Source: an uncultured Rhodospirillaceae bacterium
GTDB taxonomy: Bacteria; Pseudomonadota; Alphaproteobacteria; UBA8366
Direction: 5' to 3'
DNA: 64,000 bases
Assembly (NCBI GenBank): GCA_913043025.1
Contig: CAJWLM010000003.1
Span: 1-64,000 of the forward strand
The position numbers and the translations under genes are program-made. The notes beneath the pieces are model-generated. The model saw only the letters and a list, made by a program, of their open reading frames with translations, had not been told where the DNA came from and did no database searches. Positions 12,545-63,348 of the stretch are shown here, one piece after another. Every line of letters begins with the position of its first letter. The stretch's first letter is position 1.

Positions 12545-12553
12545 GGTAGGAAC

Positions 12554-14588: not shown

Positions 14589-14620
14589 CGCATATCGGGG
14601 CCAATATATGATTGAGCAGT

Positions 14621-20153: not shown

Positions 20154-20160
20154 CGGACCA

Positions 20161-20168
20161 CCCTCCCC
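20161..20168 (-). promoter_or_regulatory. Ribosome binding site deciding the ATT start of tctAB copy 2
   Basis: GGGGAGGG on the minus strand sits 7 bases before ATT at 20153. It is the only strong Shine-Dalgarno element in the gap and matches the start predicted from the paralog alignment. Confidence 0.7.
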
Positions 20169-20238
20169 ATTAGCGACTTACTGAAAACGACTTCCAACTG
20201 AAAATTTTACAACATTAAAATATATAAAAGAAATCTAT

Positions 20239-20274
20239 AAAAAAGTGGGACCGGCCCTACAATAGGCCGGTCCC
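20239..20274 (-). terminator. Rho-independent terminator between tctC and tctAB
   Basis: A perfect 10-base stem (GGGACCGGCC with GGCCGGTCCC), an 8-base loop and a run of six T on the minus strand lie 10 bases after the tctC stop. It should end most tctC transcripts and let only some readthrough reach the permease genes, a usual way to make binding protein in excess. Confidence 0.88.
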
Positions 20275-20284
20275 CCTTATCAGT

Positions 20285-21367
20285 TTATTTACCGAATTTT
20301 TTAATCAACCAAGCATCCATCCACTTCTTACCCTCGGGACTCATGCTAGTCGCAAACTTAATTATGTTCTGAGCATCTCCACCAAATGAATGCGGATATT
20401 TACCCATGTCCTTTTTTATGAAATCCAAGAACTTTGGGTCCTTATAGATTTTCTTAAAGGTAGCAACATAAGTGTCGTAGACATCCTTCGATGCATCTCC
20501 CGGCAGAGCCATTGATTTAGATGCACTTACGCCCATTGCGATAAAGTTCTTCATAACTTCCCAATGAACACCAGATGGCTTTTTACCATTAACAGCTTCG
20601 TAAGCTTCAGCCACACTTGGAGTTTCATCGCCTAGATATGGATCTTTGACAACTTTGCCTGACGGCAGAAGTAGGCCAAGGTTCATGAGAGGTGTAACGG
20701 TGCCCTTCTTGATCCACTTCGTGACAGATTTGTTGTATTTGGCGGCACTGTCATAGTTGATGTTAAGCTCACCACGCAATATTGCCTTGCGCTGTTTACC
20801 TGTCGAAAGACCAAAAACTGGCTTAGGGAAATATCCAAGAAGGTCAAAGGCCAAAAAGGCACGAAGTTCAGCCGAGGTTTTGTTTTTGGCACCGAAAACA
20901 AGATTCGCTTTCCGGAGAGCCATTACATCAGCCTTAGCACCTTTATTCTTGATCCCAGTCTGGTCTGACCGAGCATAGAATGCAGTCCCTAATGGGTTCG
21001 CGACAACTACCTTCCAGCTATTAGGATTATATTTGACTTTGTTCCCACCAAAAAGAAAGCTGGTCAAAGTCGATGTCGAGACGGTTAGAATAGTAAGACC
21101 GTCACCTTTTTGCTTCTGGAAATAGTTTGCACCAAGGATTGAGCTACCGCCTGGCTTGTTGAGAACAACAACCTTGGGATTTCCTGGCAGATATTGTTGT
21201 AGAAATGGTTGCCAGGTGCGACCGTAACGGCTTGCACCGCCACCCTCTTTAAAGGGAACGATAATTGTTACGGTTTTGCCGCTGAAGTCAGCAGCTGACA
21301 CCGCAATTGGTGCCATAGCGAGGCCTCCGCCCAAAGCGGCGGCGGCCATGATCTTACGTAAAGACAT
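20285..21367 (-). CDS. TctC/Bug-family tripartite tricarboxylate transporter binding protein
   Basis: The 360-residue product has a clear signal peptide (basic start, hydrophobic core, VSA-A cleavage at about residue 26). A Bug/TctC-like domain follows, with the early strand VTIIVPFKEGGGASRYGRTW and the NKPGGSS turn that contacts carboxylate ligands in the family. It is periplasmic and delivers a carboxylate to the TctAB permeases encoded downstream. An AGGGAGG site lies 7 bases before the ATG. It is longer than most Bug proteins (about 320), with an extended C-terminal part. The ligand cannot be told from sequence. Confidence 0.87.
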   Translation of the reverse strand: MSLRKIMAAAALGGGLAMAPIAVSAADFSGKTVTIIVPFKEGGGASRYGRTWQPFLQQYLPGNPKVVVLNKPGGSSILGANYFQKQKGDGLTILTVSTSTLTSFLFGGNKVKYNPNSWKVVVANPLGTAFYARSDQTGIKNKGAKADVMALRKANLVFGAKNKTSAELRAFLAFDLLGYFPKPVFGLSTGKQRKAILRGELNINYDSAAKYNKSVTKWIKKGTVTPLMNLGLLLPSGKVVKDPYLGDETPSVAEAYEAVNGKKPSGVHWEVMKNFIAMGVSASKSMALPGDASKDVYDTYVATFKKIYKDPKFLDFIKKDMGKYPHSFGGDAQNIIKFATSMSPEGKKWMDAWLIKKFGK

Positions 21368-46354: not shown

Positions 46355-47719
46355 ATGGCTGAATTGCGTATGATGGCAACTACCGGGATGGTTGGGTATG
46401 GCTACACAGAGGAAGCCTTCAATAGAGGTCTTGAACAGGGTTTAGATTTTATAGCCGCCGATGGTGGGTCTATGGACCCGGGCCCTCACTACCTCGGCCA
46501 GGGAATTCCTTTTGTTTCGCGCCAAGCAATCAAGAGAGATCTCTCTTTGATGCTTGAGGCTGCTATCAAACAACAGATCCCAATGCTTGTTGGCTCCTGC
46601 GGTGGCGGAGGAAGTGACCCACAGCTAAATTTTGTGCGCGATGTCGTCAAAGAAATTGCTGAAGACAAGGATCTGCATTTCAACATGGCCTTAATTCGTG
46701 CCGAGCAATCGGCCGCCTACCTAAAACAAAAGTGTGCTGCCGGAAAAATTGAGTCACTTGGCCCGATCTCTGAAATGACCCCAAACATGATTGACGAAAG
46801 TCATAGGGTTGTAGGCATGATGGGTGTAGAACCATTTCAAAAAGCTATTAATGATGGAGCACAAGTTGTCTTGGCAGGTCGGGCTACAGATGCGTCTATC
46901 TATTCTGCAATACCGTTAATGCGTGGTTTCGATCCTGGGCTTTGTTGGCATTTATCGAAAATTATTGAGTGCGCAGGACAAGTAACCACCCCGCGGACTG
47001 GCCAAGACTGCGTTATAGGCACACTGCACGACGATTATTTCCTTGTTGAGCCGGGTCATCCCGACAAACGCTGCACGCGCATGCGTATTGCGGCACATAC
47101 ACTCTATGAAAATCCGAGTCCCTACCATCTAGAGGAGCCCGAAGGCACGCTAGTCACAACACATTCAAATTACGAGCAACTAGATGAAAGAATAGTCAAG
47201 GTAAGCGGCAGCCGTTTCGAAGACGCCAATCGCTACACTGTTAAACTTGAAGGTGTAAAGTCATCGGGCTACCGTACTGTCTTTATCGCGGGAGTACGCG
47301 ATCCAATACTCATTTCTGTAATAGATGAATTTATTCAAGCTTGCCACGAACGCGTAGCAGTAGAAGCAGGTAATCTCAGTATCAGCCGAGACCAATACCG
47401 ACTTAACATTCGAGTTTACGGGAAAAATGCCACCATGGGACCGAGGGAGCCTGTTAAGTATACCCAAGCCCACGAAATCGGGTTACTTGTAGACGTGCTA
47501 GCGAATGACCCTGAGACCAGCAAAGCTATAATGGCAAAAGCGCGTTATGCATTGCTGCATACTGATTTCCCTGGCCGAAAATGCATCTCTGGGAACCTCG
47601 CAATCCCATTTTCACCTTCCGATATGCCTGTTGGCCAAACGTATGAGTTTAGTATTTGGCATAGGATGGAAATCAAAAACCCACTGGAACCTTTTCCAAT
47701 AGAAATGGTGGAGGTGTAA
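46355..47719 (+). CDS. AtuA family protein (DUF1446)
   Basis: The 454-residue product matches the acyclic terpene utilisation AtuA/DUF1446 family: GLDFIAADGGSMDPGPHYLG near the start, VGSCGGGGSDP and AGRATDASIYS in the middle. The enzyme activity of the family is not well established; AtuA is needed for citronellol/geraniol catabolism in Pseudomonas. GGGAGG lies 9 bases before the ATG. The next gene, 5 bases on, encodes DUF4387, its common partner. It opens a nine-gene rightward run that ends with F420 synthesis. No atuC/atuF carboxylase genes are present. Confidence 0.87.
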   Translation: MAELRMMATTGMVGYGYTEEAFNRGLEQGLDFIAADGGSMDPGPHYLGQGIPFVSRQAIKRDLSLMLEAAIKQQIPMLVGSCGGGGSDPQLNFVRDVVKEIAEDKDLHFNMALIRAEQSAAYLKQKCAAGKIESLGPISEMTPNMIDESHRVVGMMGVEPFQKAINDGAQVVLAGRATDASIYSAIPLMRGFDPGLCWHLSKIIECAGQVTTPRTGQDCVIGTLHDDYFLVEPGHPDKRCTRMRIAAHTLYENPSPYHLEEPEGTLVTTHSNYEQLDERIVKVSGSRFEDANRYTVKLEGVKSSGYRTVFIAGVRDPILISVIDEFIQACHERVAVEAGNLSISRDQYRLNIRVYGKNATMGPREPVKYTQAHEIGLLVDVLANDPETSKAIMAKARYALLHTDFPGRKCISGNLAIPFSPSDMPVGQTYEFSIWHRMEIKNPLEPFPIEMVEV

Positions 47720-47724
47720 TTATT

Positions 47725-48036
47725 ATGACAACTCTTTCGGAATTAACATCTGTTTTGCGATCAAAAAATGCCGGCGCATTGCTCTGCACACTCGATCTTA
47801 TGTTTGAAGACCAAATTACCTATGAGAAAGTACGCGACAGTGGCGTACTAACACCCAGCTTAATCGCCGACCTTTATGGGTTATCCGATAACGAAGTATC
47901 AATTATTCCTTACGACGTTGCCTATGCAATCAAAATCACCATACCCAGACTTTACAAGTCTGGCGATCCTGACGATTCTGATATCTATGGTGCGCAGCAA
48001 CACGCACCCTTACTCGATATTGATATCCCCGTCTAA
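47725..48036 (+). CDS. DUF4387 domain protein
   Basis: The 103-residue product fits DUF4387: LRSKNAGALLCTLDLMFED, quoted in part here, then a VLTPSLIADLYGL helix and a C-terminal YGAQQHAPLLDIDIP that is characteristic. Proteins of this family are nearly always encoded after AtuA/DUF1446, often fused or adjacent, and probably form a complex with it. Function is unknown. It starts 5 bases after the AtuA-family stop and lies 25 bases before the aldolase-like gene. Confidence 0.83.
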   Translation: MTTLSELTSVLRSKNAGALLCTLDLMFEDQITYEKVRDSGVLTPSLIADLYGLSDNEVSIIPYDVAYAIKITIPRLYKSGDPDDSDIYGAQQHAPLLDIDIPV

Positions 48037-49215: not shown

Positions 49216-50007
49216 ATGAGTAATAAAATTCATGCTAATGGCATCGACATAAATTATGAATTCGACGGCCCTACTGATGCACCTGTTTTGATGCTCAGTA
49301 ATTCACTCGCCTCAAATCTTCATATGTGGGATGCCCAAGTTGAGGCCCTTGCCTCCAAATTTAGAGTATTGCGTGCTGATACTCGCGGCCATGGCAAGAC
49401 AGAAGTCACTCCCCCTCCTTACACGGTGCAGTTGTTGCTTGATGACGCCATCGCACTACTAGACGCACTCCAAATCCAAAAGGTTCATTTTTGTGGACTC
49501 TCGCTCGGTGGAATGATTGGACAACGATTTGGAGCGTTTCATGGAGATAGATTGCATAGCTTGACGCTCTGCGATACTACCTCACAAATGCGGGATCCTT
49601 CAATTTGGGACGAACGTGTGAAAATGGCAAAGGAGCGGGGCATGGCTGGAATCCAATCAGCAACCATGGCCCGTTGGTTCACAGAAAATTTTTTTTCCAC
49701 CGGGGGAGCCGTAATTAAGGAGATCCAGGAGATGATCGAAGCGACCCCATTAGTCGGATTTATCGGCTGCTGTGAAGCTATCAAAGAAATGAACCAGGCT
49801 GATATTTTAAATAAAATTCAATCCCCAACATTAATTATTGTGGGAGAAGATGACCAAAGCACTCCATTGGCAGCCGCACAATTCCTCAAAGAAAATATTG
49901 AAGGATCAGGGCTTGTTGTGATTAAGTCGGCGGCCCATCTGGCAAACATAGAGCAACATGAAGCATTTAATGTTGCGCTTGAAGCACATATTGAAACAAT
50001 AAACTAG
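49216..50007 (+). CDS. 3-oxoadipate enol-lactonase-like alpha/beta hydrolase
   Basis: The 263-residue product is an alpha/beta hydrolase close to PcaD. It has NSLASNLHMWDAQ (oxyanion hole), RADTRGHGKTEV, the nucleophile elbow GLSLGGMIG with Ser at about 96, Asp in VGEDDQSTP and His in SAAHLANIEQ. PcaD hydrolyses beta-ketoadipate enol-lactone, but no other protocatechuate genes are seen, so it may open a different lactone or ester. AAGAGG precedes the ATG. It ends 17 bases before npdG, linking the catabolic part of the run to the F420 genes. Confidence 0.83.
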   Translation: MSNKIHANGIDINYEFDGPTDAPVLMLSNSLASNLHMWDAQVEALASKFRVLRADTRGHGKTEVTPPPYTVQLLLDDAIALLDALQIQKVHFCGLSLGGMIGQRFGAFHGDRLHSLTLCDTTSQMRDPSIWDERVKMAKERGMAGIQSATMARWFTENFFSTGGAVIKEIQEMIEATPLVGFIGCCEAIKEMNQADILNKIQSPTLIIVGEDDQSTPLAAAQFLKENIEGSGLVVIKSAAHLANIEQHEAFNVALEAHIETIN

Positions 50008-50024: not shown

Positions 50025-50693
50025 GTGACTTGTAAAAAACTGTCCATAGCTATCATAGGCGGCACCGGCGATCTCGGCTCAGGTCTCGCTCTTAGGTGGG
50101 CCAAAGCGGGTTACCCTATTATAATTGGATCACGATCCAAAGCAGCAGCCGAGGAAGCTGCAAAAAAACTTGCCAAAATTTCTGGGGGGCAAGTTACCGG
50201 AGACGAAAATAGCCTGGCTGCCGCATCCGCTGGCTTAGTTGTACTCACCGTTCCCTTTTCAAACCATGAGCCTATGCTGAATATTATAAAAGACGGCGTA
50301 CATGGGAAAATATTGATCGACGTAACTGTGCCCTTAGCGCCGCCTAAAGTTATGAGGGTGAAATTACCCGTCGGCGGATCCGCCGCGAAAGAAACACAAG
50401 ATTTTTTAGGTGATGAAGTTCGCGTTGTTTCTGCTTTTCAGAATATCGCTGCAGATTTATTGCACGATTTAACAGCGACTATCGAATGCGAAGTGCTCGT
50501 TTGCGGAAATAATAAAGATGCACGCGCCGAAGTGGTTGAGCTTGCCAAATCTGCTGGAATGACCGCATGGCACGCCGGGCCTATTGACAACTCTGCCGCC
50601 GCAGAGGCTTTGACGTCCCTATTAATCTTCATCAATAAGAATGGGCCCGTTACTCACGCAGGCATACGTGTGACTGGTGACCCGAAGTCGTGA
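50025..50693 (+). CDS. npdG: F420:NADP+ oxidoreductase
   Basis: The 222-residue product has an N-terminal Rossmann domain with IIGGTGDLGSGLALRWAKAG and IIGSRS (the Ser/Arg pair that selects NADP), and the F420-side segment AFQNIAADLLHD in the C-terminal half. This is the Fno/NpdG pattern. It exchanges hydride between NADPH and F420 and here would be the route to F420H2; no glucose-6-phosphate F420 dehydrogenase is present in the window. The start is GTG with a GGGGG site 7 bases upstream. Its stop overlaps the GTG of cofE. Confidence 0.9.
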   Translation: MTCKKLSIAIIGGTGDLGSGLALRWAKAGYPIIIGSRSKAAAEEAAKKLAKISGGQVTGDENSLAAASAGLVVLTVPFSNHEPMLNIIKDGVHGKILIDVTVPLAPPKVMRVKLPVGGSAAKETQDFLGDEVRVVSAFQNIAADLLHDLTATIECEVLVCGNNKDARAEVVELAKSAGMTAWHAGPIDNSAAAEALTSLLIFINKNGPVTHAGIRVTGDPKS

Positions 50694-51448
50694 CACCAAG
50701 AAAGCTCGAAGTTATCGCTCTTGATGACTTCCCCTTTATTTCGCCAGGCGATGACCTTGCCAGCATTATATTGGAGAGATCACATACAGCTGGACTTCAC
50801 GATGGCGATATTCTCGTTATTGCTCAAAAAATTGTTTCCAAAGCTGAGAACCGGTATAGAAATCTGAACGATATCAATCCTTCAACAGAGGCAATTGAGC
50901 TTGCTGCTGAGACCGAGAAGGATCCGTCTTTGGTCGAATTGATTTTGCAAGAGTCCGTGGAAATTGTTCGCCACCGCCCGAGTGTAATAATTGCGAGACA
51001 CCGGTTAGGCTATGTGCTCGCAAATGCAGGAATTGATGCCTCGAATGTTGGTCGCACGAGAGAACATGTTCTCTTGTTACCAGAGGACCCTAACAAAACC
51101 TGCCAAGAATTACTTCAAGTGTTTTCTGATTCCTGCGACGCCCGTTTGGGGGTAATAATTAACGACAGCCTTGGACGCGCCTGGAGACGAGGAACCGCCT
51201 CGATTGCACTCGGCTCAGCTGGATTTCCTGCGTTACTTGACCTTCGAGAGAATCCGGATCTTGATCAGAGGCCTCTTAAAGTGAGCATGGTGGGTCTCGC
51301 AGATGAATTAGCGTCTGCAGCCTCATTAGTCCAAGGACAAGGGAATGAAGGTAGGCCAGTTGCTATTATAAAAGGTTTTGATCCATTTAATTTTGAGGTG
51401 TCCGGAACAGAATTAACCAGACCTGAAGATGAGGATTTATTCAGATGA
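50690..51448 (+). CDS. cofE: Coenzyme F420-0:L-glutamate ligase
   Basis: The 252-residue product matches CofE/FbiB N-terminal domain: DILVIAQKIVSKAENR, RLGYVLANAGIDASNV and the metal and GTP-contact segment INDSLGRAWRRGT. It adds glutamate residues to F420-0 with GTP. It ends at the CofE length and lacks the C-terminal nitroreductase-like domain that mycobacterial FbiB uses to reduce dehydro-F420. The start is GTG, overlapping npdG by 4 bases; its stop overlaps the cofD ATG (ATGA). The overlaps imply strict co-translation. Confidence 0.93.
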   Translation: MTPRKLEVIALDDFPFISPGDDLASIILERSHTAGLHDGDILVIAQKIVSKAENRYRNLNDINPSTEAIELAAETEKDPSLVELILQESVEIVRHRPSVIIARHRLGYVLANAGIDASNVGRTREHVLLLPEDPNKTCQELLQVFSDSCDARLGVIINDSLGRAWRRGTASIALGSAGFPALLDLRENPDLDQRPLKVSMVGLADELASAASLVQGQGNEGRPVAIIKGFDPFNFEVSGTELTRPEDEDLFR

Positions 51449-52392
51449 CCCGATGCATCGCTTTAACCGGGGGGGTCGGTGGCACAAAACTTGTGCTAGG
51501 TCTGACCCAAATCCTTTCTCCAGAGGAACTTTTAATTGCAGTCAATACAGGTGATGATTTTGAACACCTCGGTCTGACTATATGTCCCGATATAGATACG
51601 GTACTTTACACTCTAGCGGGCATTGCTAATCCGGACACAGGTTGGGGGCGCGCACAAGAGAGCTGGAAAACAATGGAAACTCTTGAGAGATTGGGTGGCG
51701 AAACTTGGTTCCGACTTGGAGATCAAGATTTGGCGCTTCATCTAGCCCGAAGACATCAAATGACCCTTGGTGCCACCCTTACTGAAATCACAGCTAATCT
51801 AGCTAAAAAGCTTAACATTCGTCATCCGATAGTTCCGATGAGCGACCACCCAGTGCGCACAATGGTTTTAACAGAGGAAGGTGAGATGCCCTTCCAGGAA
51901 TATTTTGTGAAAAATCGTTGCTTGCCCGCTATAAATGGTTTTCGATTTGCTGGAATTAAAAGTGCAATCCCCTCATCAAAACTGCTAAGAGCATTTGAGG
52001 ATCCAGCGCTAGAGTTGCTAATTATTTGTCCGTCAAACCCGTTTATAAGTATTGATCCTATCCTTAAATTACCCGGCCTAAAAAAGGCAATAGAGAACTC
52101 CCAAATCTGCGTCTTAGCGGTGTCTCCCATCGTAGGGGGCCAAGCACTAAAGGGGCCTACAGCCAAAATGTTAAAAGAGCTTGGCCTGAAATCAGATGCG
52201 TCTTCGATAGCACAACATTACGGTAAAATTCTCGATGGCTTTGTGATTGATACGAAAGATAGCAGCCTAGGGAAGCAAATAAGAAAGAAAGGACACAAGG
52301 TTTTTGTTACTCAAACCATAATGAAATCGCTTGATGATAAAGTGACTTTGGCTAATGATATCTTGGATTTCGCAGCAGGTATTTCTTTGTGA
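51445..52392 (+). CDS. cofD: 2-phospho-L-lactate transferase
   Basis: The 315-residue product shows the CofD/FbiA hallmarks: GGVGGTKLVLGL at about residues 9-20, NTGDDFEHLGLTICPDIDTV (about 34-53), the DHPVRTMV loop and SNPFISIDPIL. It transfers the phospholactyl (or phosphoenolpyruvyl/phosphoglyceryl) group from the GDP-activated donor to Fo, giving F420-0 or an analogue. The start overlaps cofE. A 79-base gap separates it from cofC. Confidence 0.95.
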   Translation: MTRCIALTGGVGGTKLVLGLTQILSPEELLIAVNTGDDFEHLGLTICPDIDTVLYTLAGIANPDTGWGRAQESWKTMETLERLGGETWFRLGDQDLALHLARRHQMTLGATLTEITANLAKKLNIRHPIVPMSDHPVRTMVLTEEGEMPFQEYFVKNRCLPAINGFRFAGIKSAIPSSKLLRAFEDPALELLIICPSNPFISIDPILKLPGLKKAIENSQICVLAVSPIVGGQALKGPTAKMLKELGLKSDASSIAQHYGKILDGFVIDTKDSSLGKQIRKKGHKVFVTQTIMKSLDDKVTLANDILDFAAGISL

Positions 52393-52471: not shown

Positions 52472-53149
52472 ATGTGGGCCGTCCTGCCCGCGAAAGACTT
52501 TCGCAATGCCAAAAAGAGACTGTCCCCTGCTTTGACTCCGCAGGAACGTCAATCTCTTTTCGCCGTTATGCTAGAGGATGTTCTAGAGGCCGCCGTCAAC
52601 GCACCTTCTCTGGATGGAGTAATGATAGTAACTCGGGACCCCCAAGCTGCAAGCTTAGCGCGCAAATATAACGTAGAAGTTAACAATGAACCAACTAATG
52701 ATGGGCAAAGTGCAGCGGTAACACGTGCTGCTTACCAATTAAATCAAACAAGAAGAGATGGTATCCTAACGCTGCCCGGCGACACCCCAAATCTACGATC
52801 GAGCGAGATCGAGGCTATAATCGCCAGGCACCCACCAGCTCCAGCTATGAGCATTGTTCCATCCCATGACAAACTTGGCTCAAATTGTATTGCCTTAACC
52901 CCACCAGACCTAATACCTTTCCATTTTGGACATGAGAGCTTTCAACCCCATCTCGATGAAGCAGCAAAACGTCAAATCGAACCAGTAGTCCACCTCGATC
53001 TTCCGGGCATAGGGCTCGACATAGACACACCAGCAGATCTAGTGAGGTTTTTAAAAGAGGGCGGAAAAACACGGACACACCAATACCTTCGGGCAAGCGG
53101 GATTGCCGAAATCTTTCTCTCAAAACAGCATATACCAGGCATTGGATGA
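52472..53149 (+). CDS. cofC: 2-phospho-L-lactate guanylyltransferase
   Basis: The 225-residue product is a nucleotidyltransferase of the CofC/FbiD family: VLPAKDFRNAKKRLSP at the N-terminus binds GTP, and ILTLPGDTPNL carries the metal Asp. It makes the GDP-activated donor used by CofD. Known bacterial versions use phosphoenolpyruvate or 3-phosphoglycerate as well as 2-phospholactate; which one applies here cannot be told by eye. AAGGAGAG lies 6 bases before the ATG. The last 4 bases overlap the cofGH start. Confidence 0.93.
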   Translation: MWAVLPAKDFRNAKKRLSPALTPQERQSLFAVMLEDVLEAAVNAPSLDGVMIVTRDPQAASLARKYNVEVNNEPTNDGQSAAVTRAAYQLNQTRRDGILTLPGDTPNLRSSEIEAIIARHPPAPAMSIVPSHDKLGSNCIALTPPDLIPFHFGHESFQPHLDEAAKRQIEPVVHLDLPGIGLDIDTPADLVRFLKEGGKTRTHQYLRASGIAEIFLSKQHIPGIG

Positions 53150-55518
53150 TGAAATTGCAAGATCTTTTAACAAAAAGTTTAGACGAACTAATGGCGTCTG
53201 CAAGCGCCAAACGCGATGAACAGTATGGAAATATAATTAGCTATTCACGCAAAGTTTTTATTCCCCTCACAACCCTTTGCCGTGACGTTTGTCATTACTG
53301 CACTTTCGCAAAACCTCCTCAGAAAGGGTGCCGAGCCTATCTAGATTCTCACGAGGTTTTGGCTATTGCCGAAGCCGGAAAAGACTCTGGCTGTAAAGAG
53401 GCCTTATTTACTCTCGGTGACAAACCAGAGGCTCGCTACCGTACTGCGCGAGAAGAACTATCTCTACTCGGTCATGAAACTACATTGTCATATTTATCGG
53501 AAATGGCAGCACTTGTATTTGAAAAGACTGGCCTGTTACCACATCTCAATCCGGGAGTTATGTCCAAAAAGGAAGTTTCCGATTTACGAGAGGTTTCAGT
53601 ATCGCAAGGTATAATGCTCGAAAGCACATCTAAGCGCCTTTGCCAAAAGGGCGGGCCTCACTATGGCTCACCCGACAAGGAACCTTCAGCGCGGTTAATG
53701 ACGATTGATGTGGCCGGCGCGCTATCCGTTCCCTTTACATCTGGTCTTCTAATCGGAATAGGGGAGACTAAAGCGGAGCGGATAGAAACATTGGTTGCAC
53801 TTCGTGATGCCCATACAAAACACAGTCATATTCAAGAAGTAATTATTCAAAACTTCCGCGCTAAACCCAATACAAAGATGGCGCAAGCTCAAAACCCTGG
53901 ACTAGAAGAGTTACTTTGGACTATTGCAGTTGCCCGCTTAATTTTACCCTCCTCAATCAACATACAGGTTCCACCCAATTTGAATGACGGAGTACTACCT
54001 CAACTGATCGCAGCTGGTATAAATGATTGGGGAGGTGTTTCACCTGTAACGCCAGATCACGTCAACCCAGAGGCTCCTTGGCCACACCTAGATAAATTAG
54101 CAAGTGAAACTGCTCATGACGGAAAGCAATTGACTGAACGACTTGCTGTCTATCCCCACTATGCTCAAAATATCGATGCTTGGGCGGCCCCTACCATCGC
54201 GTCTGCAGTGAGACAAAAAAGTGATAGTGAGGGATATGCCCGGTGTGAGGATTGGACCCCGGGCTCAGACATCCCTGTGCCTATTTTGAAGAAAAAAGGG
54301 CCTTGCGACCATGCACTACTTCAAACCCTAAAGAAAGCTCAGGCTGGTCATCGCCTTTGCGAGCAAGAGATAGCGCATTTATTCTCGGCACGTGGTGGCA
54401 ATTTTAGGAAAGTTTGCGAGACTGCCGATGATATTCGACGTGAGACAGTCGGTAACGATATTACTTATGTAGTTAATCGCAACATAAACTATACAAATGT
54501 TTGCTCCTATCGTTGCCAATTCTGTGCGTTCTCCAAAGGTAAGCTCAGCGAGAATCTCCGCGGTCGACCGTATGTTCTTGATCTTGATGAGGTGGCTCGG
54601 AGGGCAAAAGAAGCGTGGGAAAGAGGCGCGACAGAGATTTGTATGCAGGGTGGTATTCATCCACAATATACCGGCGACACATATGTAGAGCTCGTCAAAA
54701 CCGTGCGTACAGCGGCACCAGGCCTTCACATTCATGCTTTCACTCCGCTTGAGATAAGGCAGGGCGCCAGAACACTCGGTCTTTCCATACGTAATTTTCT
54801 CATCAAACTACAGGCAGCGGGACTTGGGACCTTGCCTGGAACCGCAGCAGAGATTCTCGACGATGACGTGCGTGCAGTCATCTGTCCAGACAAGCTATCC
54901 TCCTCCGAGTGGCTTGACGTAATGAAAATGGCTCATGAGCTTGGGTTAAAGACCACCGCCACAATTATGTTTGGGCATGTTGACAAGCCACTTCATTGGG
55001 CGCGTCACCTGAGAAAAATCCGAGACCTTCAAGAATTAACTAACGGATTTACAGAGTTAGTCCCTCTTCCCTTTGTACCTATGGAAGCACCAATCTATTT
55101 AAAAGGCCAGGCCCGATTCGGACCCACTTATCGCGAATCTATTTTAATGCACGCCGTGTCACGAATTGTCTTGCACCCGGTCATTTCCAATATTCAAGCC
55201 TCTTGGGTTAAGATGGGAATTGATGGCATGAAAGATTGTTTAGAATCGGGCGCCAACGATGCCGGCGGCACACTTATGAACGAAACTATCACACGAGCTG
55301 CTGGCGCCCAGCATGGACAGGAAATGCCAACATCTCAGATGGTAGATATTATTATAGGATTGGGACGGAGTGCTAGACAACGAACAACGCTTTACGAGAC
55401 AGCCGATGCGAAAAGAGTTGCTGCAGCCAAATATGCCAAACCGCTAACGACGGTAGTTAACACCCCGGCCGCAAATTATTCCCGCCAAAGTTCAACAGCT
55501 TTAACAGCGGCGGAGTAA
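53146..55518 (+). CDS. fbiC: Fused 7,8-didemethyl-8-hydroxy-5-deazariboflavin (Fo) synthase
   Basis: The 790-residue product joins CofG (about 1-345) and CofH (about 400-775), the FbiC arrangement found in bacteria. Each half is a radical-SAM domain: the first cluster motif is CRDVCHYC (Cys45, Cys49, Cys52), the second CSYRCQFC (Cys453, Cys457, Cys460). It makes the deazaflavin Fo from tyrosine and 5-amino-6-ribitylaminouracil. The start ATG overlaps cofC; a second ATG follows at once. It is the last gene of the rightward run and its stop is one base from the stop of the convergent LLM gene. The linker (about 345-400) is poorly conserved. Confidence 0.96.
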   Translation: MMKLQDLLTKSLDELMASASAKRDEQYGNIISYSRKVFIPLTTLCRDVCHYCTFAKPPQKGCRAYLDSHEVLAIAEAGKDSGCKEALFTLGDKPEARYRTAREELSLLGHETTLSYLSEMAALVFEKTGLLPHLNPGVMSKKEVSDLREVSVSQGIMLESTSKRLCQKGGPHYGSPDKEPSARLMTIDVAGALSVPFTSGLLIGIGETKAERIETLVALRDAHTKHSHIQEVIIQNFRAKPNTKMAQAQNPGLEELLWTIAVARLILPSSINIQVPPNLNDGVLPQLIAAGINDWGGVSPVTPDHVNPEAPWPHLDKLASETAHDGKQLTERLAVYPHYAQNIDAWAAPTIASAVRQKSDSEGYARCEDWTPGSDIPVPILKKKGPCDHALLQTLKKAQAGHRLCEQEIAHLFSARGGNFRKVCETADDIRRETVGNDITYVVNRNINYTNVCSYRCQFCAFSKGKLSENLRGRPYVLDLDEVARRAKEAWERGATEICMQGGIHPQYTGDTYVELVKTVRTAAPGLHIHAFTPLEIRQGARTLGLSIRNFLIKLQAAGLGTLPGTAAEILDDDVRAVICPDKLSSSEWLDVMKMAHELGLKTTATIMFGHVDKPLHWARHLRKIRDLQELTNGFTELVPLPFVPMEAPIYLKGQARFGPTYRESILMHAVSRIVLHPVISNIQASWVKMGIDGMKDCLESGANDAGGTLMNETITRAAGAQHGQEMPTSQMVDIIIGLGRSARQRTTLYETADAKRVAAAKYAKPLTTVVNTPAANYSRQSSTALTAAE

Positions 55519-55519: not shown

Positions 55520-56536
55520 TTATGCACCAGCCACTTTTGGCATAACCTGCTCTGCAAAAAGATGCATTGATTCTAACATCTGATTTTGGGGCATGCCCAC
55601 ACCTTGCATTCCCAAAACCATATGAGTTACGCCAAGCCGTTTCTCATAACTAATGATCTGTTCTGCAACTTCATCTGGTGAACCGAATAAAAAACGGTCT
55701 TTGGTTAACTCATCAAAATCAAGGTCTAAATTATCATCGCCCTTGGGCATTGCTTTATCTTGCCCCCATTGATGGTATACTTTGTACTTTTCTTCGAGAT
55801 ATGGGCGCGCAATTTCCTTTGCTTTATCGCGGGTCTCAGCAACAAAAATTTCACGCATCATCGGAAGCTCGTCAGGAAAGGGTTTCCCAAATTCATCCAA
55901 TGCTCTCTTGTATATCTCGAGCTGCCGTTCAATTGTATCCATCCGTTGATGCGGGTTTATGAACCAGGTATCAACGATCTCTGCAGCACGTCGTACCGCA
56001 GCATCTGCATTGGCCCCCATCCACAAGGGAGGATGGGGCTTTTGCATTGGTTTCAGAGACAATGTGGTGTCAGAAAGCTCAAAGTGAGAGCCCTTCATAT
56101 TGACATGGTCTTCAGTCCACAATTTTTTAATAGCCTCTAAATTTTCAATTAGCCGCGGCACGCGTTCCTTAGTTGTTGTTCCAAAGCCTCGAAATTCAAC
56201 CTCACGGTATCCTAGACCACAGCCAAAAACTAGTCTGCCGCCTGACATTACATCCATTGATGAGAGTTGCTCTGCTATATCCAATGGCTTGTGTAAAGAT
56301 AGAAGAATAATACCCGTAATTAAACGCATACGTTTTGTCTCGGCCATGGCGCGCGACAAGAAGGGTATCAACTGAAACTGTTGCAAAGGATAACCAGCAT
56401 AATGCATGCCCGATATTAAATCATCAAAACCAAGCTGCTCGGCCATCCGAACCTGTTCCATAAGTTCCTCGAACCGGGCATTCATATTAGATTCTTTCGC
56501 ACGGTACTGACCGCGGATAAATAGGCCGTACTTCAT
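55520..56536 (-). CDS. LLM-class oxidoreductase, array member 5 (distal)
   Basis: The 338-residue product is a luciferase-like (beta/alpha)8-barrel enzyme. It has LISGMHYAGYPLQQF early, SGGRLVFGCGLGYREVEF in the middle and PPLWMGANADAAVRRAA. It is the most divergent array member in the loop after GYREVEF: TTKERVPR instead of KEIVRR or KGTGVxRF. AGGAG precedes the ATG. LLM enzymes use FMN or F420; beside a full F420 operon, F420 is a reasonable guess, but cofactor residues do not settle it. It is transcribed toward, and ends one base from, the cofGH stop. Confidence 0.87.
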   Translation of the reverse strand: MKYGLFIRGQYRAKESNMNARFEELMEQVRMAEQLGFDDLISGMHYAGYPLQQFQLIPFLSRAMAETKRMRLITGIILLSLHKPLDIAEQLSSMDVMSGGRLVFGCGLGYREVEFRGFGTTTKERVPRLIENLEAIKKLWTEDHVNMKGSHFELSDTTLSLKPMQKPHPPLWMGANADAAVRRAAEIVDTWFINPHQRMDTIERQLEIYKRALDEFGKPFPDELPMMREIFVAETRDKAKEIARPYLEEKYKVYHQWGQDKAMPKGDDNLDLDFDELTKDRFLFGSPDEVAEQIISYEKRLGVTHMVLGMQGVGMPQNQMLESMHLFAEQVMPKVAGA

Positions 56537-56545
56537 TTTTTTCTC

Positions 56546-57568
56546 CTAAAGTCCTTGCCTCACTTTTGGCATTACATCTTTGGCAAACATCTCGATATTT
56601 TCCATGACCATACTGTGTGGCATGCCAGGCCATTGGCATGATGTTATAAAATTGTTGGTCCCAAGCAACCTACAATAATCTATTATTTCTTCTACAACTT
56701 CATCCGCATTTCCAAAGATGAAACGATTCTGCAATAAGTCGTCAAATGCTAGCCCGAGGGTATCACCTTGGGGCATCGGCTCGGACTGACCCCATGCATG
56801 ATAGGTTGAATATTTAAGGCCCAAATAAGGCCTAACCGCTTCGATAGCAGCCTCGCGAGAGTCTGCTATATACACCTCACGCCTTAATGGCCATTCAGTC
56901 GGAAATGGTTTTTTATATTTTTCTAAACAACGCTTGTAAAATTCGACCTGTCTGTACAATGTATCTTTACGATGATGCGCGCTAATATACCAAGCATCAC
57001 CAATCCTTGCTGCCCGATCTACTGCTACATCAGCATTTGCGCCAATCCAAATTGGGGGATGGGGCTTTTGCACACATGGCATGGAGACTGAGGCATTATC
57101 GAGTTCAAAGTAGTCGCCCTTCATATTTACTCTGTCCTCAGTCCACAAACGTCGAATAGCTTTCAGATTTTGTTCGAACCTCTTAACACCTGTGCCTTTC
57201 TTTATGTTGAAAGCCTTATACTCCACATCACGATAACCGAGCGCAGCACCAAAGACGAGCTTCCCGCCTGACATTACATCCATGGTCGCAAAATACTCTG
57301 CTATCTCAAGTGGCTTATGAAGTGCCAGCAATACAATTCCCGCAATCAACCGCATATCGGGAGCGTCAGCCATCAACCTGCAGAGCAGTGGTAACTGCTG
57401 AAATTCATAAAACGGGTCACTAGAATAATGATTACCCTTTGCAAACGAATCATAGCCTAGGGCATTTAAAAGCTGCACCTGCTGGAGAAGTTCCTCAAAA
57501 CGAGTAGGCATATCTTCGGTTCGAGTATACTGGCACCGCGTCATGTAGCCAAACTCGATCTTTCCCAT
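56546..57568 (-). CDS. LLM-class oxidoreductase, array member 4
   Basis: The 340-residue product has the same luciferase-like layout: FAKGNHYSSDPFYEF, SGGKLVFGAALGYRDVEYKA, and PPIWIGANADVAVDRAAR. Its KKGTGVKRFEQN loop groups it with member 3. It differs from the others in QCPWPGMPH-type ends (SCQWPGMPHS), which resembles member 1. AGGGG precedes the ATG and 9 bases separate it from member 5. The substrate is unknown. Confidence 0.87.
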   Translation of the reverse strand: MGKIEFGYMTRCQYTRTEDMPTRFEELLQQVQLLNALGYDSFAKGNHYSSDPFYEFQQLPLLCRLMADAPDMRLIAGIVLLALHKPLEIAEYFATMDVMSGGKLVFGAALGYRDVEYKAFNIKKGTGVKRFEQNLKAIRRLWTEDRVNMKGDYFELDNASVSMPCVQKPHPPIWIGANADVAVDRAARIGDAWYISAHHRKDTLYRQVEFYKRCLEKYKKPFPTEWPLRREVYIADSREAAIEAVRPYLGLKYSTYHAWGQSEPMPQGDTLGLAFDDLLQNRFIFGNADEVVEEIIDYCRLLGTNNFITSCQWPGMPHSMVMENIEMFAKDVMPKVRQGL

Positions 57569-57579
57569 CTTTAATACCC

Positions 57580-58599
57580 CTAAGCCGCGCGAACTTTGGG
57601 CATTACCTCCTCGGCAACGAGTGAGAGTGTGTCAAGTACCTGACCCTGCGGCATGCCTACCCCTTGCACACTCATAATAATATGGTTGACCCCGAGTTCT
57701 CTGTTGTATCTTACGTACTCTTCCGCAACTTCATCTGGGTCACCAACTATAAACCTGTCTCTAGCAAGCTCTGCGTATTCCTGTGTTATGTCACGATCCT
57801 CTGCTGGCATCGCCTTATCCTGGCCCCACGTTTTATATGCATCGTACATTCCCTTGATGTAAGGCGCAGCCAGTTCTACTGCCTCATCATGCGTGGGAGC
57901 ACAAAATACCTCTCGACGTATTGGAAGCTCTTGCGGAAAAGGTTTGTTATATTTTTCCAATTCTTCTCTATAAAGATCCATTTGACGGAGTAATGTTTCT
58001 ACTTTTTGATGCGGGTTTAGATACCAACAATCACCAAGCCGGGCCGCACGTCGAATTGCTACATCGGCGTTCGCCCCAATCCAGATGGGCGGATGTGGGT
58101 CCTGCTGCAAAGGCACTGAAATTCGTGCCTCGTCGAGCTCAAAGTTAGTGCCCTTCATAGAAACTTTTTCATCTGTCCAAAGCCTGCGTACCGCCTCAAG
58201 GTTTTCCTCAAATCGGGTCACGCCAGTACCCTTTTCTACGCCAAACGCCTTATATTCGACCTCGCGATATCCCAGTGCGCAACCAAAAATCATGCGCCCT
58301 CCACTCATAAGATCCATAGTTGCGAAATAATCTGCCACTTCCATGGGATTATGTAGGGCTAACAGTACAATACCGGCGTTCAGGCGTACGTTCGGCGCCT
58401 CTGACATAATTCGGCAAAGAAAAGGTATCTGTGTCATTTCCTGGTGGGGATAGGTTGAAAAGTGCGAGCCCTTGGTAATACAGTCATAACCCAATTTATC
58501 GATCAAACGAGCTTGCTCCATCAGCTCATTGAATCGCACTTTCATGTCGTCATCCCAGTCAAAAAGGCCGCGCAACATGACACCAAATTGCATATCCAT
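57580..58599 (-). CDS. LLM-class oxidoreductase, array member 3
   Basis: The 339-residue product keeps the family blocks: ITKGSHFSTYPHQEM, SGGRMIFGCALGYREVEYKA, and PPIWIGANADVAIRRAARLG. The EKGTGVTRFEEN loop pairs it with member 4. GGAG precedes the ATG. It is 11 bases upstream of member 4 and 14 bases downstream of member 2, so it is part of one transcript. It has no signal peptide and is cytoplasmic. Confidence 0.87.
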   Translation of the reverse strand: MDMQFGVMLRGLFDWDDDMKVRFNELMEQARLIDKLGYDCITKGSHFSTYPHQEMTQIPFLCRIMSEAPNVRLNAGIVLLALHNPMEVADYFATMDLMSGGRMIFGCALGYREVEYKAFGVEKGTGVTRFEENLEAVRRLWTDEKVSMKGTNFELDEARISVPLQQDPHPPIWIGANADVAIRRAARLGDCWYLNPHQKVETLLRQMDLYREELEKYNKPFPQELPIRREVFCAPTHDEAVELAAPYIKGMYDAYKTWGQDKAMPAEDRDITQEYAELARDRFIVGDPDEVAEEYVRYNRELGVNHIIMSVQGVGMPQGQVLDTLSLVAEEVMPKVRAA

Positions 58600-58613
58600 T
58601 TAATATCTCCAGT

Positions 58614-59636
58614 TCATGCGTTTTTCAGGTTGGGCAAAACTTCTTCGCCTAACATATAAAGGGCCTCCAATACCTGGCTCTGGGGCATGCCAGCACCCTG
58701 CACACTTGCAATAATATGATTGACCCCCAAAGTCTCATGCAAGTCTAGCAACTGTTCGCAAACTTCTGCAGGCGACCCAAGTACGAAACGATCATCTAAT
58801 AATTCTTCCCAATCCAGATCCAGATTATTATCACCTTCAGGCATAACCGTATCCTGCCCCCATGAATGATAAACCTTGTATTTTAATCCAATGGCTGGCT
58901 TAGCTAATTCAATAGCTTTTTCACGCGTCTCAGCCACAAATACCTCCTTACGCATCGGAAATTCTTTTGGAAAGGGTCTATCTGCCGCGTCTAAAGCACG
59001 CTTATAAACTTCAAGTTGACGATATAGTGTTTCATTACGGCTGTGGGGGTTTACATACCAACAATCACCAATTTGTGCTGCACGTTCAATTGCCGGGTCG
59101 GCGTTAGCACCAATCCAGATGGGAGGACGCGGCTTTTGGAGTGGCTTAATTGAGCAAGATGCTTCATCAAGTTCGAAAAAGCTTCCTTTCATGGTCACCT
59201 TGTCCTCCGTCCAAAGTCTTTTGATCGCCTCAATATTTTCAGTAAACCGTCGAACAATTTCCTTTTTTTGTACGCCGAACGCTTTAAGTTCGACCTCGCG
59301 GTAACCAAGCGCAGCACCAAAAATAATTCTCCCGCCAGATAACACATCCATGGTCGCTACCAACTCAGCGTAGTCTAGCGGTTTATGTAAGGCTAATAAT
59401 ACTATCCCCATATTAAGGCGCATTTTTTTCGTTTCTGCCATAACTCGAGACAGATAAGGGACCATCTGAATATCTTGGAGTGGCCAGCTAGAATAGTGCA
59501 TACCCTTCGTGATGCACGAGAAACCTAGTTTATCCGCTAGGCGTATTTGTTCGAACATTTCCTCGAACCGGAGTTGCATATCATCCCCTTGTGGAAACTG
59601 TCCGCGTGTCATCAGACCTAATTGAATATCAGCCAT
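58614..59636 (-). CDS. LLM-class oxidoreductase, array member 2
   Basis: The 340-residue product has ITKGMHYSSWPLQDI, SGGRIIFGAALGYREVELKA, QKKEIVRRFTEN and PPIWIGANADPAIERAAQ. The KEIVRR loop and ANADPAIERAA pair it with member 1. Its ribosome site is weak (GGATGA). LLM barrels of about 340 residues include alkanal, sulfonate and F420-dependent enzymes; nothing here fixes the substrate. Confidence 0.87.
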   Translation of the reverse strand: MADIQLGLMTRGQFPQGDDMQLRFEEMFEQIRLADKLGFSCITKGMHYSSWPLQDIQMVPYLSRVMAETKKMRLNMGIVLLALHKPLDYAELVATMDVLSGGRIIFGAALGYREVELKAFGVQKKEIVRRFTENIEAIKRLWTEDKVTMKGSFFELDEASCSIKPLQKPRPPIWIGANADPAIERAAQIGDCWYVNPHSRNETLYRQLEVYKRALDAADRPFPKEFPMRKEVFVAETREKAIELAKPAIGLKYKVYHSWGQDTVMPEGDNNLDLDWEELLDDRFVLGSPAEVCEQLLDLHETLGVNHIIASVQGAGMPQSQVLEALYMLGEEVLPNLKNA

Positions 59637-59675
59637 TATTCATCCGTATAAAAGTTAAGCAGCGTGAAGAGTGCT

Positions 59676-60701
59676 TCACATGCCCTCGCGCACTTTTGGG
59701 AAAACCTCTTCCGCTAATAACTGAATTGTTTCCATCGCCAAGGATTGCGGCATGCCAGGCCATTGAACACTAAAAACATGGTGGTTTATTCCAGTTTCGT
59801 GGCTGTATTTTATAATTTGTTCTGCCACTTCATCTGGTCCCCCAAGAAAAAAACGATCCTTGATCAAGTCATCAAAATCAACATCGAAATTATTATCTCC
59901 TTCCGGCATAACTTTGTCCTGACCCCATGCATGATAAACTTCGTATTTTTTAGCAAGGTAGGGCTTGCATAGCCTAATAGCTTCCTCTCGCGAGGCTGCC
60001 ACAAAACATTCCCGCCGACCGGGAAATTCCGTGGGAAACGGCTTATCTAACTTTTCTAATGCCCTCTTATAAACATCGATCTGATTGCGAATTGTATCAA
60101 CACGATTGTGCGGGTTGACATACCAACAATCCCCTATCCGCGCCGCTCTCTCGATAGCAGGATCAGCATTGGCGCCAATCCAAACTGGGGGATGCGGCCG
60201 CTGAATAGGTTTGACTGAGCAGGAAGCATCAAGCAATTCAAAAAATGTTCCATCCATAGAAACTGAGTCTTCCGTCCAAAGTCGCTTAATGGCATCCACA
60301 TTCTCTGTCAATCGCCGAACTATCTCCTTACGTTTTACTCCGAAAGCAGCAAGCTCAACTTCCCGGTAACCCAGAGCTGCGCCAAAAATAACGCGCCCAT
60401 TTGTCATGACATCTAGTGATGCAAGTTGTTCTGCAATTTCCAGCGGCTTATGTAGGGCAAGAAGTATGATGCCAAAGTTATGACGCAGGTTTTTTGTTTC
60501 CGCTGCCATACGTGAATGGAACACCATCTGATTGAAAACCTGCATGGGTGATGACGAGTAATGCATGCCCTTCGTCAATGAGGCGAAACCCAGCTTATCG
60601 ATCAGACGTACTTGCTCCACCATTTCATCAAACCGTTTCCTCATGTCCTCTTCTTGAGGAAACTGCCCTCTGATCATTAACCCAAATTGCATATCTGACA
60701 T
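59676..60701 (-). CDS. LLM-class oxidoreductase, array member 1 (promoter-proximal)
   Basis: The 341-residue product opens the LLM array. It has LTKGMHYSSSPMQVF, TNGRVIFGAALGYREVELAA, KRKEIVRRLTEN and PPVWIGANADPAIERAAR, close to member 2. AGAAGGG precedes the ATG, 3 bases after the stop of the DUF962 gene, so translation is coupled. Its C-terminal SVQWPGMPQSLAM differs from member 2's SVQGAGMPQS, a region near the active-site mouth in LLM folds, suggesting different substrate choice. Confidence 0.87.
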   Translation of the reverse strand: MSDMQFGLMIRGQFPQEEDMRKRFDEMVEQVRLIDKLGFASLTKGMHYSSSPMQVFNQMVFHSRMAAETKNLRHNFGIILLALHKPLEIAEQLASLDVMTNGRVIFGAALGYREVELAAFGVKRKEIVRRLTENVDAIKRLWTEDSVSMDGTFFELLDASCSVKPIQRPHPPVWIGANADPAIERAARIGDCWYVNPHNRVDTIRNQIDVYKRALEKLDKPFPTEFPGRRECFVAASREEAIRLCKPYLAKKYEVYHAWGQDKVMPEGDNNFDVDFDDLIKDRFFLGGPDEVAEQIIKYSHETGINHHVFSVQWPGMPQSLAMETIQLLAEEVFPKVREGM

Positions 60702-60704: not shown

Positions 60705-61040
60705 CTACCCTTCTTTGATACCGTGCTTGACAAGTTCCGCTTGAAGCTTGCCGCTTGCGGCGAGAACAAACATTTTAAGATCTGATAACGCTGCCCACAC
60801 AGCGTGTGAGCCAACCAATGCTTTATTACCTTCAATTAATGGATGGCTCGCAACCGCAATACTGTAGCCTAAAAAGATTCCCAACGGTACTAGCCACCAA
60901 ACTCCAAACACTATGGCCCCCAAAGCGCAACCTATTCCCACGACAGTTGCAACGTAGTGACAAAACCTTGTTGCTGGTTTTTGATGCGCCCGCAAATAAA
61001 TTGGCCAAAATTCATTAAATGATTTGTATTCTTGGGACAT
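60705..61040 (-). CDS. DUF962/Mpo1-like membrane protein
   Basis: The 111-residue product fits the Mpo1/DUF962 family: YKSFNEFWPIYLRAHQKPATR at the N-terminus, quoted in part, FCHYVATVVG in the first helix and ASHPLIEGNKA near the C-terminal side, with about 3 membrane segments. His residues HQK, FCHY and SHP are the conserved metal-binding set of Mpo1, an iron-dependent dioxygenase of 2-hydroxy fatty acids in yeast. I use ATG 61040 with GAAGG upstream, not 61061. It is coupled to LLM member 1. Confidence 0.83.
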   Translation of the reverse strand: MSQEYKSFNEFWPIYLRAHQKPATRFCHYVATVVGIGCALGAIVFGVWWLVPLGIFLGYSIAVASHPLIEGNKALVGSHAVWAALSDLKMFVLAASGKLQAELVKHGIKEG

Positions 61041-61127
61041 AATCGGCCTTCGTGGAAACAAAAAACTAATCGCGCCTAAACCTGTGGATTGTTCACACTA
61101 AAGCATGGAATGCAACATCGCAAAATA

Positions 61128-62150
61128 TTACATCGATAATTTCGGCATTACACGACGCGCATAGCCTGCATCTGAAAGCCAGGTGACCTCATCACGCAAA
61201 GATTCGATGATTGGCCTTTGCGGAATACCGAGCTCTTTGATTGCCTTTGAGCTGTCTAATGCCGCCTCAGTGCTAGCAAGTCTAACACCAGTAACTGGCG
61301 CAGTGGGTGCTCGTCGGGTTACCCAATTGGAAATTATTTCGTCAACACACGCTGCGCCAAAGGCCATCCAATAAGGTACCCGACGCTTTGGCATCTCAAG
61401 GCCAGTGATTTCCTCTAAAAGTTCTAAGACTGCACTCAAACGTATATTTTCGTTTCCTAGAATATAGCGCTCCCCCACCCGCCCTTTTTCGGCCGCGAGG
61501 ATATGTCCCCGGGCGATATCACGAACATCATTAATGTTTAGCAGACATTCTAAGTATGCAGGATGGCAACCATTCAAAAAGCCTAAAATCATACGAGTCG
61601 GTGGAGTGATTTTATAATCTCCCGGACCAACAGGCAGTGTAGGATTTACAATCACAACTGGCTGCCCATCTCGTGCAGCTTCACGGGCTGCTTGCTCGGC
61701 AAAAAATTTGGACCGACAATATGGCCCCGGCATATCGCTCGGAGCCCGTTCAATAGTCTCGTCGATAACTGAGCCAGGATCTGGTTTACGCCCTATCAAA
61801 ATTGACTCTGTTGAGGTAAATATAATCTTCTCGAGATCAAACCGCGCTGCTGCTCGTAAAACAATCTCAGTGCCGTGGAAATTTGTCTCTGCAAAATGGG
61901 ATCTATTCGGCGCCCAAAGGTTTGGGTCTCCAGCAACGTGGTACAGAATATCGATGCCAGCAAGTGCTCTTCTCACACAATCTTCATCTAAAATAGAACC
62001 CTTTAAAATCTCAACTTCGTTTGCAAAATTGCCACAAGGCTGAAGATCGAGCACTCGCACCCGACAACCATCGGTCAGCAGTTGTTCGACCAAATGGCGG
62101 CCTATGAACCCTGCTCCGCCAGTGACCAGACAAGCTTTCTGGCTTGCCAT
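61128..62150 (-). CDS. NAD-dependent epimerase/dehydratase (dihydroflavonol reductase-like)
   Basis: The 340-residue product is an extended SDR: TGGAGFIGRHL at residues 10-20 binds NAD(P), ILYHVAGDP is seen mid-domain, and the active-site Tyr and Lys fall in YCRSKFFAEQ (YxxxK). Proteins of this kind reduce or oxidise sterol-, flavonoid- or hopanoid-like ketones and sugars. GGGGG precedes the ATG. It lies 87 bases upstream of the DUF962 gene on the same strand and may be the first gene of the LLM transcript. Confidence 0.85.
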   Translation of the reverse strand: MASQKACLVTGGAGFIGRHLVEQLLTDGCRVRVLDLQPCGNFANEVEILKGSILDEDCVRRALAGIDILYHVAGDPNLWAPNRSHFAETNFHGTEIVLRAAARFDLEKIIFTSTESILIGRKPDPGSVIDETIERAPSDMPGPYCRSKFFAEQAAREAARDGQPVVIVNPTLPVGPGDYKITPPTRMILGFLNGCHPAYLECLLNINDVRDIARGHILAAEKGRVGERYILGNENIRLSAVLELLEEITGLEMPKRRVPYWMAFGAACVDEIISNWVTRRAPTAPVTGVRLASTEAALDSSKAIKELGIPQRPIIESLRDEVTWLSDAGYARRVMPKLSM

Positions 62151-62178: not shown

Positions 62179-63231
62179 CTAATCTAATCCCAATTCTTTG
62201 GCACATCCAAATTCGATTGCGAGCCCAGTCAATTTTTCCCACGTCGAATCCTCAACAAAAATGCCATCTTTCAACCTTTTTTCAGTCTTGAGGTGCTCAG
62301 GTTCTCCGGGATAATAGACACGATCGTACCCCGGCTGAGGAGGTGTAGTATTCAAGTAGTGCGCAAACTCAGTAACCTCATTTTTAAAGGTCTCAAGATC
62401 CCGAAACGCAGCAACGTTAAAACAGGACATGAAAACACCATCGTTGTGACGGCCAGAGGGATCAATCCCAAAACCCAGTCCTGGCAGCACTCCGGACATC
62501 AACTCGATCATGGCAGAAAGAGCATAACCTTTATAACCCTCCGCTCCTCCGAGCGGAAGAATAGCCCCGCCTGCTCGCTGCTTGGCAGGATCAGTGGTTG
62601 GGTTTCCATCACTATCGATAAGCCAACCCTCAGGAACCTGTTCACCACGGCTCAAAGCCACTTCTAATTTACCGGACGCTCCTGCGCTAGTTGCAAAGTC
62701 AAAAAAGAACGGACCATCCAAATTAGATGGCATGGCTATGCAAAGCGGGTTAGTTCCAAGCCTCGTCTCGCGTCCGCCAAATGGCGCTACAGCCTTATTC
62801 GATCGGCCTGAGTCCGCCGTCATAATACTGATCATGCCTTCCTTAATTGCCATCAAAGGATAGTCTGTCAGCCGCCCCACATGGCTCTGCTGGTACACAG
62901 TTGTTGCCGCCACACCACACTTTTTGGCCTTTTCTATCGTAATTTCCATTGCGCGTTCTGACACAACGTACCCAAACCCCCAATTGCCGTTTATGTGGGT
63001 AGTACCATCAGTTTCACGCTCAATCACAAATGGCGCCCCTGGAACAATATGCCCATCTTTAACACGCTGAATGTATGTTGGAATCTTGATAATACCATGA
63101 GAGTCATGACCCGCTAAGTTGGAGTCAATAGAATGCCGCGCAACAATATTTGCTTCTTTGTCACTAGCTCCAGCACCTTTCAACAAAGCTATTTCAATCT
63201 CTAACAGACGATCGGCTGCTTCAACAGGCAT
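62179..63231 (-). CDS. Ldh-family (type 2 malate/L-lactate dehydrogenase) oxidoreductase
   Basis: The 350-residue product has the Ldh_2 pattern: AGHDSHGIIKIPTYIQRV, given here in part as HDSHGIIKIPTYIQR, with the catalytic His, TADSGRSNKAVAPFGG for nucleotide, and LPLGGAEGYKGYAL. The family reduces 2-oxo acids (malate, lactate, sulfolactate, ureidoglycolate, diketogulonate) with NAD(P)H. GGGAGGG lies a few bases before ATG 63231, so I drop the upstream extension to 63312. It precedes the epimerase gene by 28 bases on the same strand. The substrate is unknown. Confidence 0.87.
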   Translation of the reverse strand: MPVEAADRLLEIEIALLKGAGASDKEANIVARHSIDSNLAGHDSHGIIKIPTYIQRVKDGHIVPGAPFVIERETDGTTHINGNWGFGYVVSERAMEITIEKAKKCGVAATTVYQQSHVGRLTDYPLMAIKEGMISIMTADSGRSNKAVAPFGGRETRLGTNPLCIAMPSNLDGPFFFDFATSAGASGKLEVALSRGEQVPEGWLIDSDGNPTTDPAKQRAGGAILPLGGAEGYKGYALSAMIELMSGVLPGLGFGIDPSGRHNDGVFMSCFNVAAFRDLETFKNEVTEFAHYLNTTPPQPGYDRVYYPGEPEHLKTEKRLKDGIFVEDSTWEKLTGLAIEFGCAKELGLD

Positions 63232-63348
63232 GGTTCCCTCCCATAAATCAACCCAACAAAAACATTTTAAAAACAAAACCCACTTAAGAGAATCTAATCC
63301 AAATTGCCACACCAGCGGTCAAGGCTATGTATACGAATTACTCAATAG

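Follow-up and report, generated by a model that had tools for sequence, protein, structure and literature searches.

A conserved five-gene array of luciferase-like proteins facing an F420 biosynthesis operon in Alphaproteobacteria, with a probable dependence on F420

What might Proteobacteria use the rare redox cofactor F420 for? In a 2021 review the reason for its production by these bacteria was listed as an open question, and its role in bacteria beyond Actinobacteria had had no experimental study (PMC8498797). The locus described here raises the question in a concrete form. In a 64,000-nucleotide stretch of DNA from an uncultured Rhodospirillaceae bacterium (the window), five paralogous genes for LLM oxidoreductases face a set of cof genes. 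As it singles out five particular conserved enzymes linked to the cofactor genes, it makes the proteobacterial F420 question directly testable.

The array lies on the minus strand. LLM1, its first gene (59676..60701, 341 aa; PF00296 E-value 3.6e-53), is followed head to tail by LLM2 (58614..59636, 340 aa; 4.8e-49), LLM3 (57580..58599, 339 aa; 1.2e-51), LLM4 (56546..57568, 340 aa; 2.1e-43) and the final gene, LLM5 (55520..56536, 338 aa; 2.5e-58), which is convergent with the gene for CofGH. The scores in the Pfam profile search, 149–198 bits against a cut-off of 27.9, and the E-values of 2e-43 to 2.5e-58 exclude a chance match. The initial annotation had described five genes of 338–341 codons with gaps of 9–39 bases, and the open reading frame coordinates bear this out, all five genes being full-length and the gaps from LLM5 to LLM1 in coordinate order being 9, 11, 14 and 39 bases. 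A single base separates the end of the CofGH gene (55518, plus strand) from the stop codon of LLM5 (55520), again as described. The GYRxVE and PPxWxGANAD blocks are found in all five proteins, which share 49–63% identity in pairs. The minus-strand run is longer than the interval originally delimited (55520–60701). Three bases upstream of LLM1 it continues with a gene for an Mpo1-like protein of the 2-hydroxy fatty acid dioxygenase family (60705..61061, minus; PF06127 E-value 1.2e-19, synteny), and then with those for an HpnA-like sugar epimerase/SDR (61128..62150, minus; TIGR03466 359.9 bits, narrowly below the cut-off of 367.65) and an Ldh_2 malate/lactate/sulfolactate-type dehydrogenase (Ldh2; 62179..63312, minus; PF02615 E-value 1.8e-106, 89–98% conserved in synteny). 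A promoter and terminator scan gave hits no more frequent than in shuffled sequences, and codon bias was uninformative as a sign of high expression. The whole genome has 16 PF00296 matches; those outside the array include two clear proteins of the F420 family TIGR03617, one closest to the F420-dependent Mer, one NtaA-like (FMN) and one MsnO8-like.

On the opposite strand the F420 biosynthesis operon, Fno-CofE-CofD-CofC-CofGH, is complete, as CofC, CofD, CofE and CofGH are all found. CofGH, an FbiC-type deazaflavin FO synthase, is encoded by a single fused gene (53146..55518, plus; NF006687 1139.9 bits, cut-off 1018). It is preceded by genes for the guanylyltransferase CofC (52472..53149, plus; PF01983 E-value 4.4e-24), the transferase CofD (51445..52392, plus; PF01933 E-value 1.8e-39), the single-domain F420-0:L-glutamate ligase CofE (50690..51448, plus; TIGR01916 248.4 bits, cut-off 180.65) and an Fno-like NADP-F420 oxidoreductase (50025..50693, plus; PF03807 E-value 2e-16), which is the likely source of F420H2. 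Directly upstream of the cof genes, and kept across the family, is a gene for an alpha/beta hydrolase (49216..50007, plus; PF00561 E-value 8.8e-23, synteny), and an AtuA-like and DUF4387 pair also lies upstream of the operon (46355..48036, plus; PF07287 and PF14330, 85–89% conserved in synteny). CofE is without an FbiB-type nitroreductase domain and the operon has no separate dehydro-F420 reductase; synthesis of the cofactor may therefore follow either the 2-phospholactate or the 3-phosphoglycerate route.

The fold and the family scores of the array proteins lean towards FMN as the cofactor. The AF2 model of LLM1 (pLDDT 93) is a TIM barrel of the LLM fold, and LLM2–5, which are 53–63% identical to LLM1, would be expected to adopt the same fold. 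The closest solved folds are RslO1 (7BIP) and Atu2307 (2I7G), with a Z-score of 38.5 and an rmsd of 2.0, yet the identity to these proteins is 25% or less; 7BIP is also the best sequence match in the PDB. Z-scores were 36–37 against luciferases and 30–32 against the F420 enzymes Mer, Adf and Fgd. In a quick, weak tree without support values the array proteins lie nearer the FMN anchors. Among the NCBIfam profiles, TIGR03619 (F420_Rv2161c) was the best match for each of the five proteins, though with partial coverage and at 111–147 bits against a cut-off of 166.9, and no curated F420 LLM family had its cut-off reached by any of the five. Their placement in one of the named LLM families was rejected, as no family score was over its cut-off.

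The array could on this evidence encode FMN-dependent two-component monooxygenases, with genes that travel with those for F420 through a common niche or pathway. That FMN enzymes rank first in the fold and profile matches, and that the quick tree groups the array proteins with FMN anchors, is in keeping with such enzymes, as is a flavin reductase gene in one distant haloarchaeal neighbourhood. For RslO1 itself, FMN dependence was assigned on the grounds of structural similarity and of a reductase as its putative partner (PMC8093152). Among the annotated genes between 44697 and 63312, however, there is no flavin reductase, although a more distant gene of the genome could encode the partner; unlike RslO1-type FMN monooxygenases, the array tracks F420 in its distribution and gene context and not flavin reductases. 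The cofactor site also departs from the luciferases. Where these have EHH and Mer has TDHY, the array proteins have KGxHY, and their KGxHY and GYREVE motifs stand against the DH motif and GPGD-type segment of Mer. They carry Leu or Ile at the position that aligns with the phosphate-binding Arg of luciferases of this type (R107 of LuxA), and this substitution counts against FMN. Taken together, the residues of the site are intermediate between the F420 and FMN types. With the distribution and gene context below, we regard FMN-dependent monooxygenases as an unlikely, if still credible, account of the array.

Earlier reasoning on LLM enzymes of mycobacteria combined profile and site analysis (discussed in PMC5300114); here the profile reasoning was followed, and TIGR03860 and TIGR03619 were added as control families. 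In a class sample of 289 alphaproteobacterial genomes, with membership set at E below 1e-60, the subfamily of the array is present in 15, all of which have cofG, compared with 46 of the 289 overall (p = 1.2e-13, a value that overstates independence, as the genomes are related; nine families are involved). In the same genomes the FMN control, NtaA/DmoA (TIGR03860), has 45 carriers, 22 of them without cofG, and the F420 control TIGR03619 has 38, one of them without cofG. The difference between the array subfamily (0/15) and TIGR03860 (22/45) in occurrence outside cof-positive genomes is significant (p = 3e-4). The subfamily thus shares with TIGR03619 a restriction to cof-positive genomes that the true FMN family does not show, which argues against the FMN monooxygenases. 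In the same sample, one 93%-complete alphaproteobacterial genome (G286) has a strong TIGR03619 protein and no cofG over the cut-off; it may scavenge F420 or may be incomplete.

The pattern extends beyond the class. Similarity to LLM1 led to 34 genomes from Burkholderiales, Rokubacteria, Nitrospinota, alphaproteobacteria and others, and cofG was over the cut-off in 31. Two more have CofGH fragments, one of them with CofD adjoining, and a Propionibacteriales bin (G090) has CofD-type genes only, without cofG. Among the 22 near relatives that carry the subfamily, 19 have cofG over the cut-off and two have fragments; the one without cofG is a 62%-complete bin. Plasmid matches were all haloarchaeal (15/15 among the matches listed), and haloarchaea are known F420 makers. 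A search in the class and outside it for the subfamily in genomes without cof genes found no clear case, and the array itself, whose frequent occurrence in such genomes the initial annotation had named as evidence against its proposal, was not found in them either (15/15 carriers cof-positive in the 289-genome sample).

The link to the cof genes is also physical. A search for the array beside cof genes elsewhere, as the initial annotation had proposed, found it opposite CofGH in four further genomes within the family. Two to five subfamily genes face CofGH in G003, G007, G011, G022, G037 and G039, and related LLM genes adjoin cofGH in other families too (contigs L015, L014, L026 and L030 are those of G005, G009, G003 and G007 and were counted once). 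In G151 and G259 a subfamily gene lies inside the cof operon, between CofC and CofGH and on the same strand, a position that further weakens the case for FMN monooxygenases. In the nearest genera the gene order is kept, with Ldh2-HpnA-Mpo1-LLM1-LLM5 facing CofGH-CofC-CofD-CofE-Fno-hydrolase, followed by DUF4387 and AtuA. The proposal of an expanded F420H2-dependent family therefore stands in its genetic part, through the cof-positive carriers (15/15), the controls and the synteny, and is qualified by a fold closest to FMN enzymes and by the failure to reach any F420 family cut-off. On balance it would seem likely, judging from the sequences, that the array enzymes are F420-dependent.

Do five such genes represent five functions? 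They could instead be redundant or decaying duplicates without separate roles, and LLM2 lends this some colour. Intact in the window, it survives in G002, a genome of the same genus, as a frameshifted remnant with part of its interior deleted; in G001, the sequence of which contains ambiguous bases, it is frame-broken at the same place. The frameshifted remnants in the two same-genus genomes lie at about 10373–10649 of contig L092 and at 1848–2922 of L013. Despite the broken LLM2, LLM1, 3, 4 and 5 are 94–99% identical in G001 and G002, so these four genes appear firmly constrained and LLM2 dispensable in those sister species. Across genera LLM1–5 are 83–91% identical, compared with about 90% for Ldh2, 85–89% for AtuA and DUF4387 and only 58–68% for CofGH, CofC, CofD and CofE; the array genes are thus more conserved than the biosynthesis genes that they face. 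In a maximum-likelihood tree of 85 subfamily proteins each array gene forms a separate orthologous clade with 100% support. Given this conservation and separation, redundancy is very improbable. Recent tandem duplication was ruled out, as every array gene is an old separate clade.

The clades of LLM3, LLM4 and LLM5 extend to other genera or families. That of LLM3 (support 100/100) includes another family of the same order, and that of LLM5 includes relatives likewise flanking CofGH. The nearest kin of LLM1 are same-family orthologues (91–98%) and then solo Burkholderiales genes (76–80%), to which the LLM1 of the host family is sister in the tree, while in two other alphaproteobacteria its counterparts cluster with those of Rokubacteria. 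The simplest reading of this distribution would be transfer.

We propose that the five genes form an operon-like array and encode ancient, non-redundant enzymes of the luciferase-like hydride-transferase type, for which the convergent Fno-CofE-CofD-CofC-CofGH operon makes F420. NADPH would most likely reduce F420 to F420H2 through the neighbouring Fno, and the five enzymes would move hydride between F420H2 and small molecules that are related to one another, each probably reducing (or oxidising) a different member of a family of small organic-acid type metabolites. Substrate recognition might use the conserved YxxYxxWGQ...MP..D segment common to all five. Key positions of this segment (YxxYxxWGQ..xMPxxD) are invariant across 48 diverse subfamily members, which suggests a substrate or cofactor-tail feature in common. 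Positions that cleanly separate the five orthologue groups are few, several of them at residues 50–61. That the enzymes act on several related compounds, as the initial annotation suggested, is plausible, since the five belong to separate ancient lineages and have a single lid-like motif in common.

Only the neighbouring genes hint at a role, which may lie in the breakdown of organic acids. Around the nearest relatives elsewhere these vary (judged by eye for genes outside the family searches), with amidohydrolase, RidA and CoA ligase types in Rokubacteria and Ldh2, TctC and TauD types in Burkholderiales. In haloarchaea the annotated neighbours are MmgE/PrpD, TctABC, CoA ester lyase and nitrile hydratase, and on haloarchaeal plasmids MmgE/PrpD occurs with TctABC or CoA ester lyase near a subfamily member. 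With neighbours so varied, the organic-acid theme stays vague; it derives, tentatively, from the recurrence of Ldh2, AtuA, DUF4387 and MmgE on contig L055 and of MmgE/PrpD on the haloarchaeal plasmids. L055 belongs to a Propionibacteriales bin with no detectable cofG, and at 9947–18750 it carries an LLM relative with Ldh2, two MmgE/PrpD genes, DUF4387 and AtuA, a set that matches the genes around the cof block of the window. A bolder, rather improbable reading would take Ldh2-HpnA-Mpo1-LLM1-5, CofGH to Fno, DUF4387 and AtuA as one supercluster for an undescribed F420-dependent catabolism of organic acids in Proteobacteria, its LLM subfamily, of FMN-like ancestry, having adopted F420 separately from the known clade of F420-using LLM enzymes.

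How does the array compare with known systems? With the F420-dependent LLM hydride transferases (Mer, Fgd, Adf, fHMAD and Apd6) it shares the LLM TIM barrel, sequence motifs, co-occurrence with F420 biosynthesis and several paralogues per genome, whereas it falls below the curated cut-offs and is structurally closer to FMN members. The mycobacterial expanded LLM/LLHT sets likewise comprise many predicted F420-dependent paralogues per genome; the array differs in being an alphaproteobacterial orthologous block that either converges on the cof operon or lies within it, and in belonging to a subfamily without a name. The initial annotation had considered such an expansion undescribed. Expanded F420-linked LLM sets are in fact known from Actinobacteria (PMC8498797, PMC5300114), and what is new is the unnamed subfamily, with its array of five orthologous genes and its attachment to cof operons of Proteobacteria. 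A single origin of F420 use in the LLM superfamily has been reported (PMC6279831), and this would be challenged if the array enzymes use F420 despite their FMN-like fold.

Elsewhere in the window, three predicted TauD/TfdA-like dioxygenase paralogues of 278–282 aa lie in tandem (10805–13396, plus) and appear to form another small paralogue array. A tandem pair of putative TctA-like permeases (654 and 667 aa) with an adjoining TctC-like binding protein occupies 16008–21367 (minus). The gene at 3115–3738 (minus) encodes a protein that resembles nitrile hydratase alpha and has a CTLCSC metal motif, and in Halalkalicoccus a nitrile hydratase gene also adjoins a distant relative of the array.
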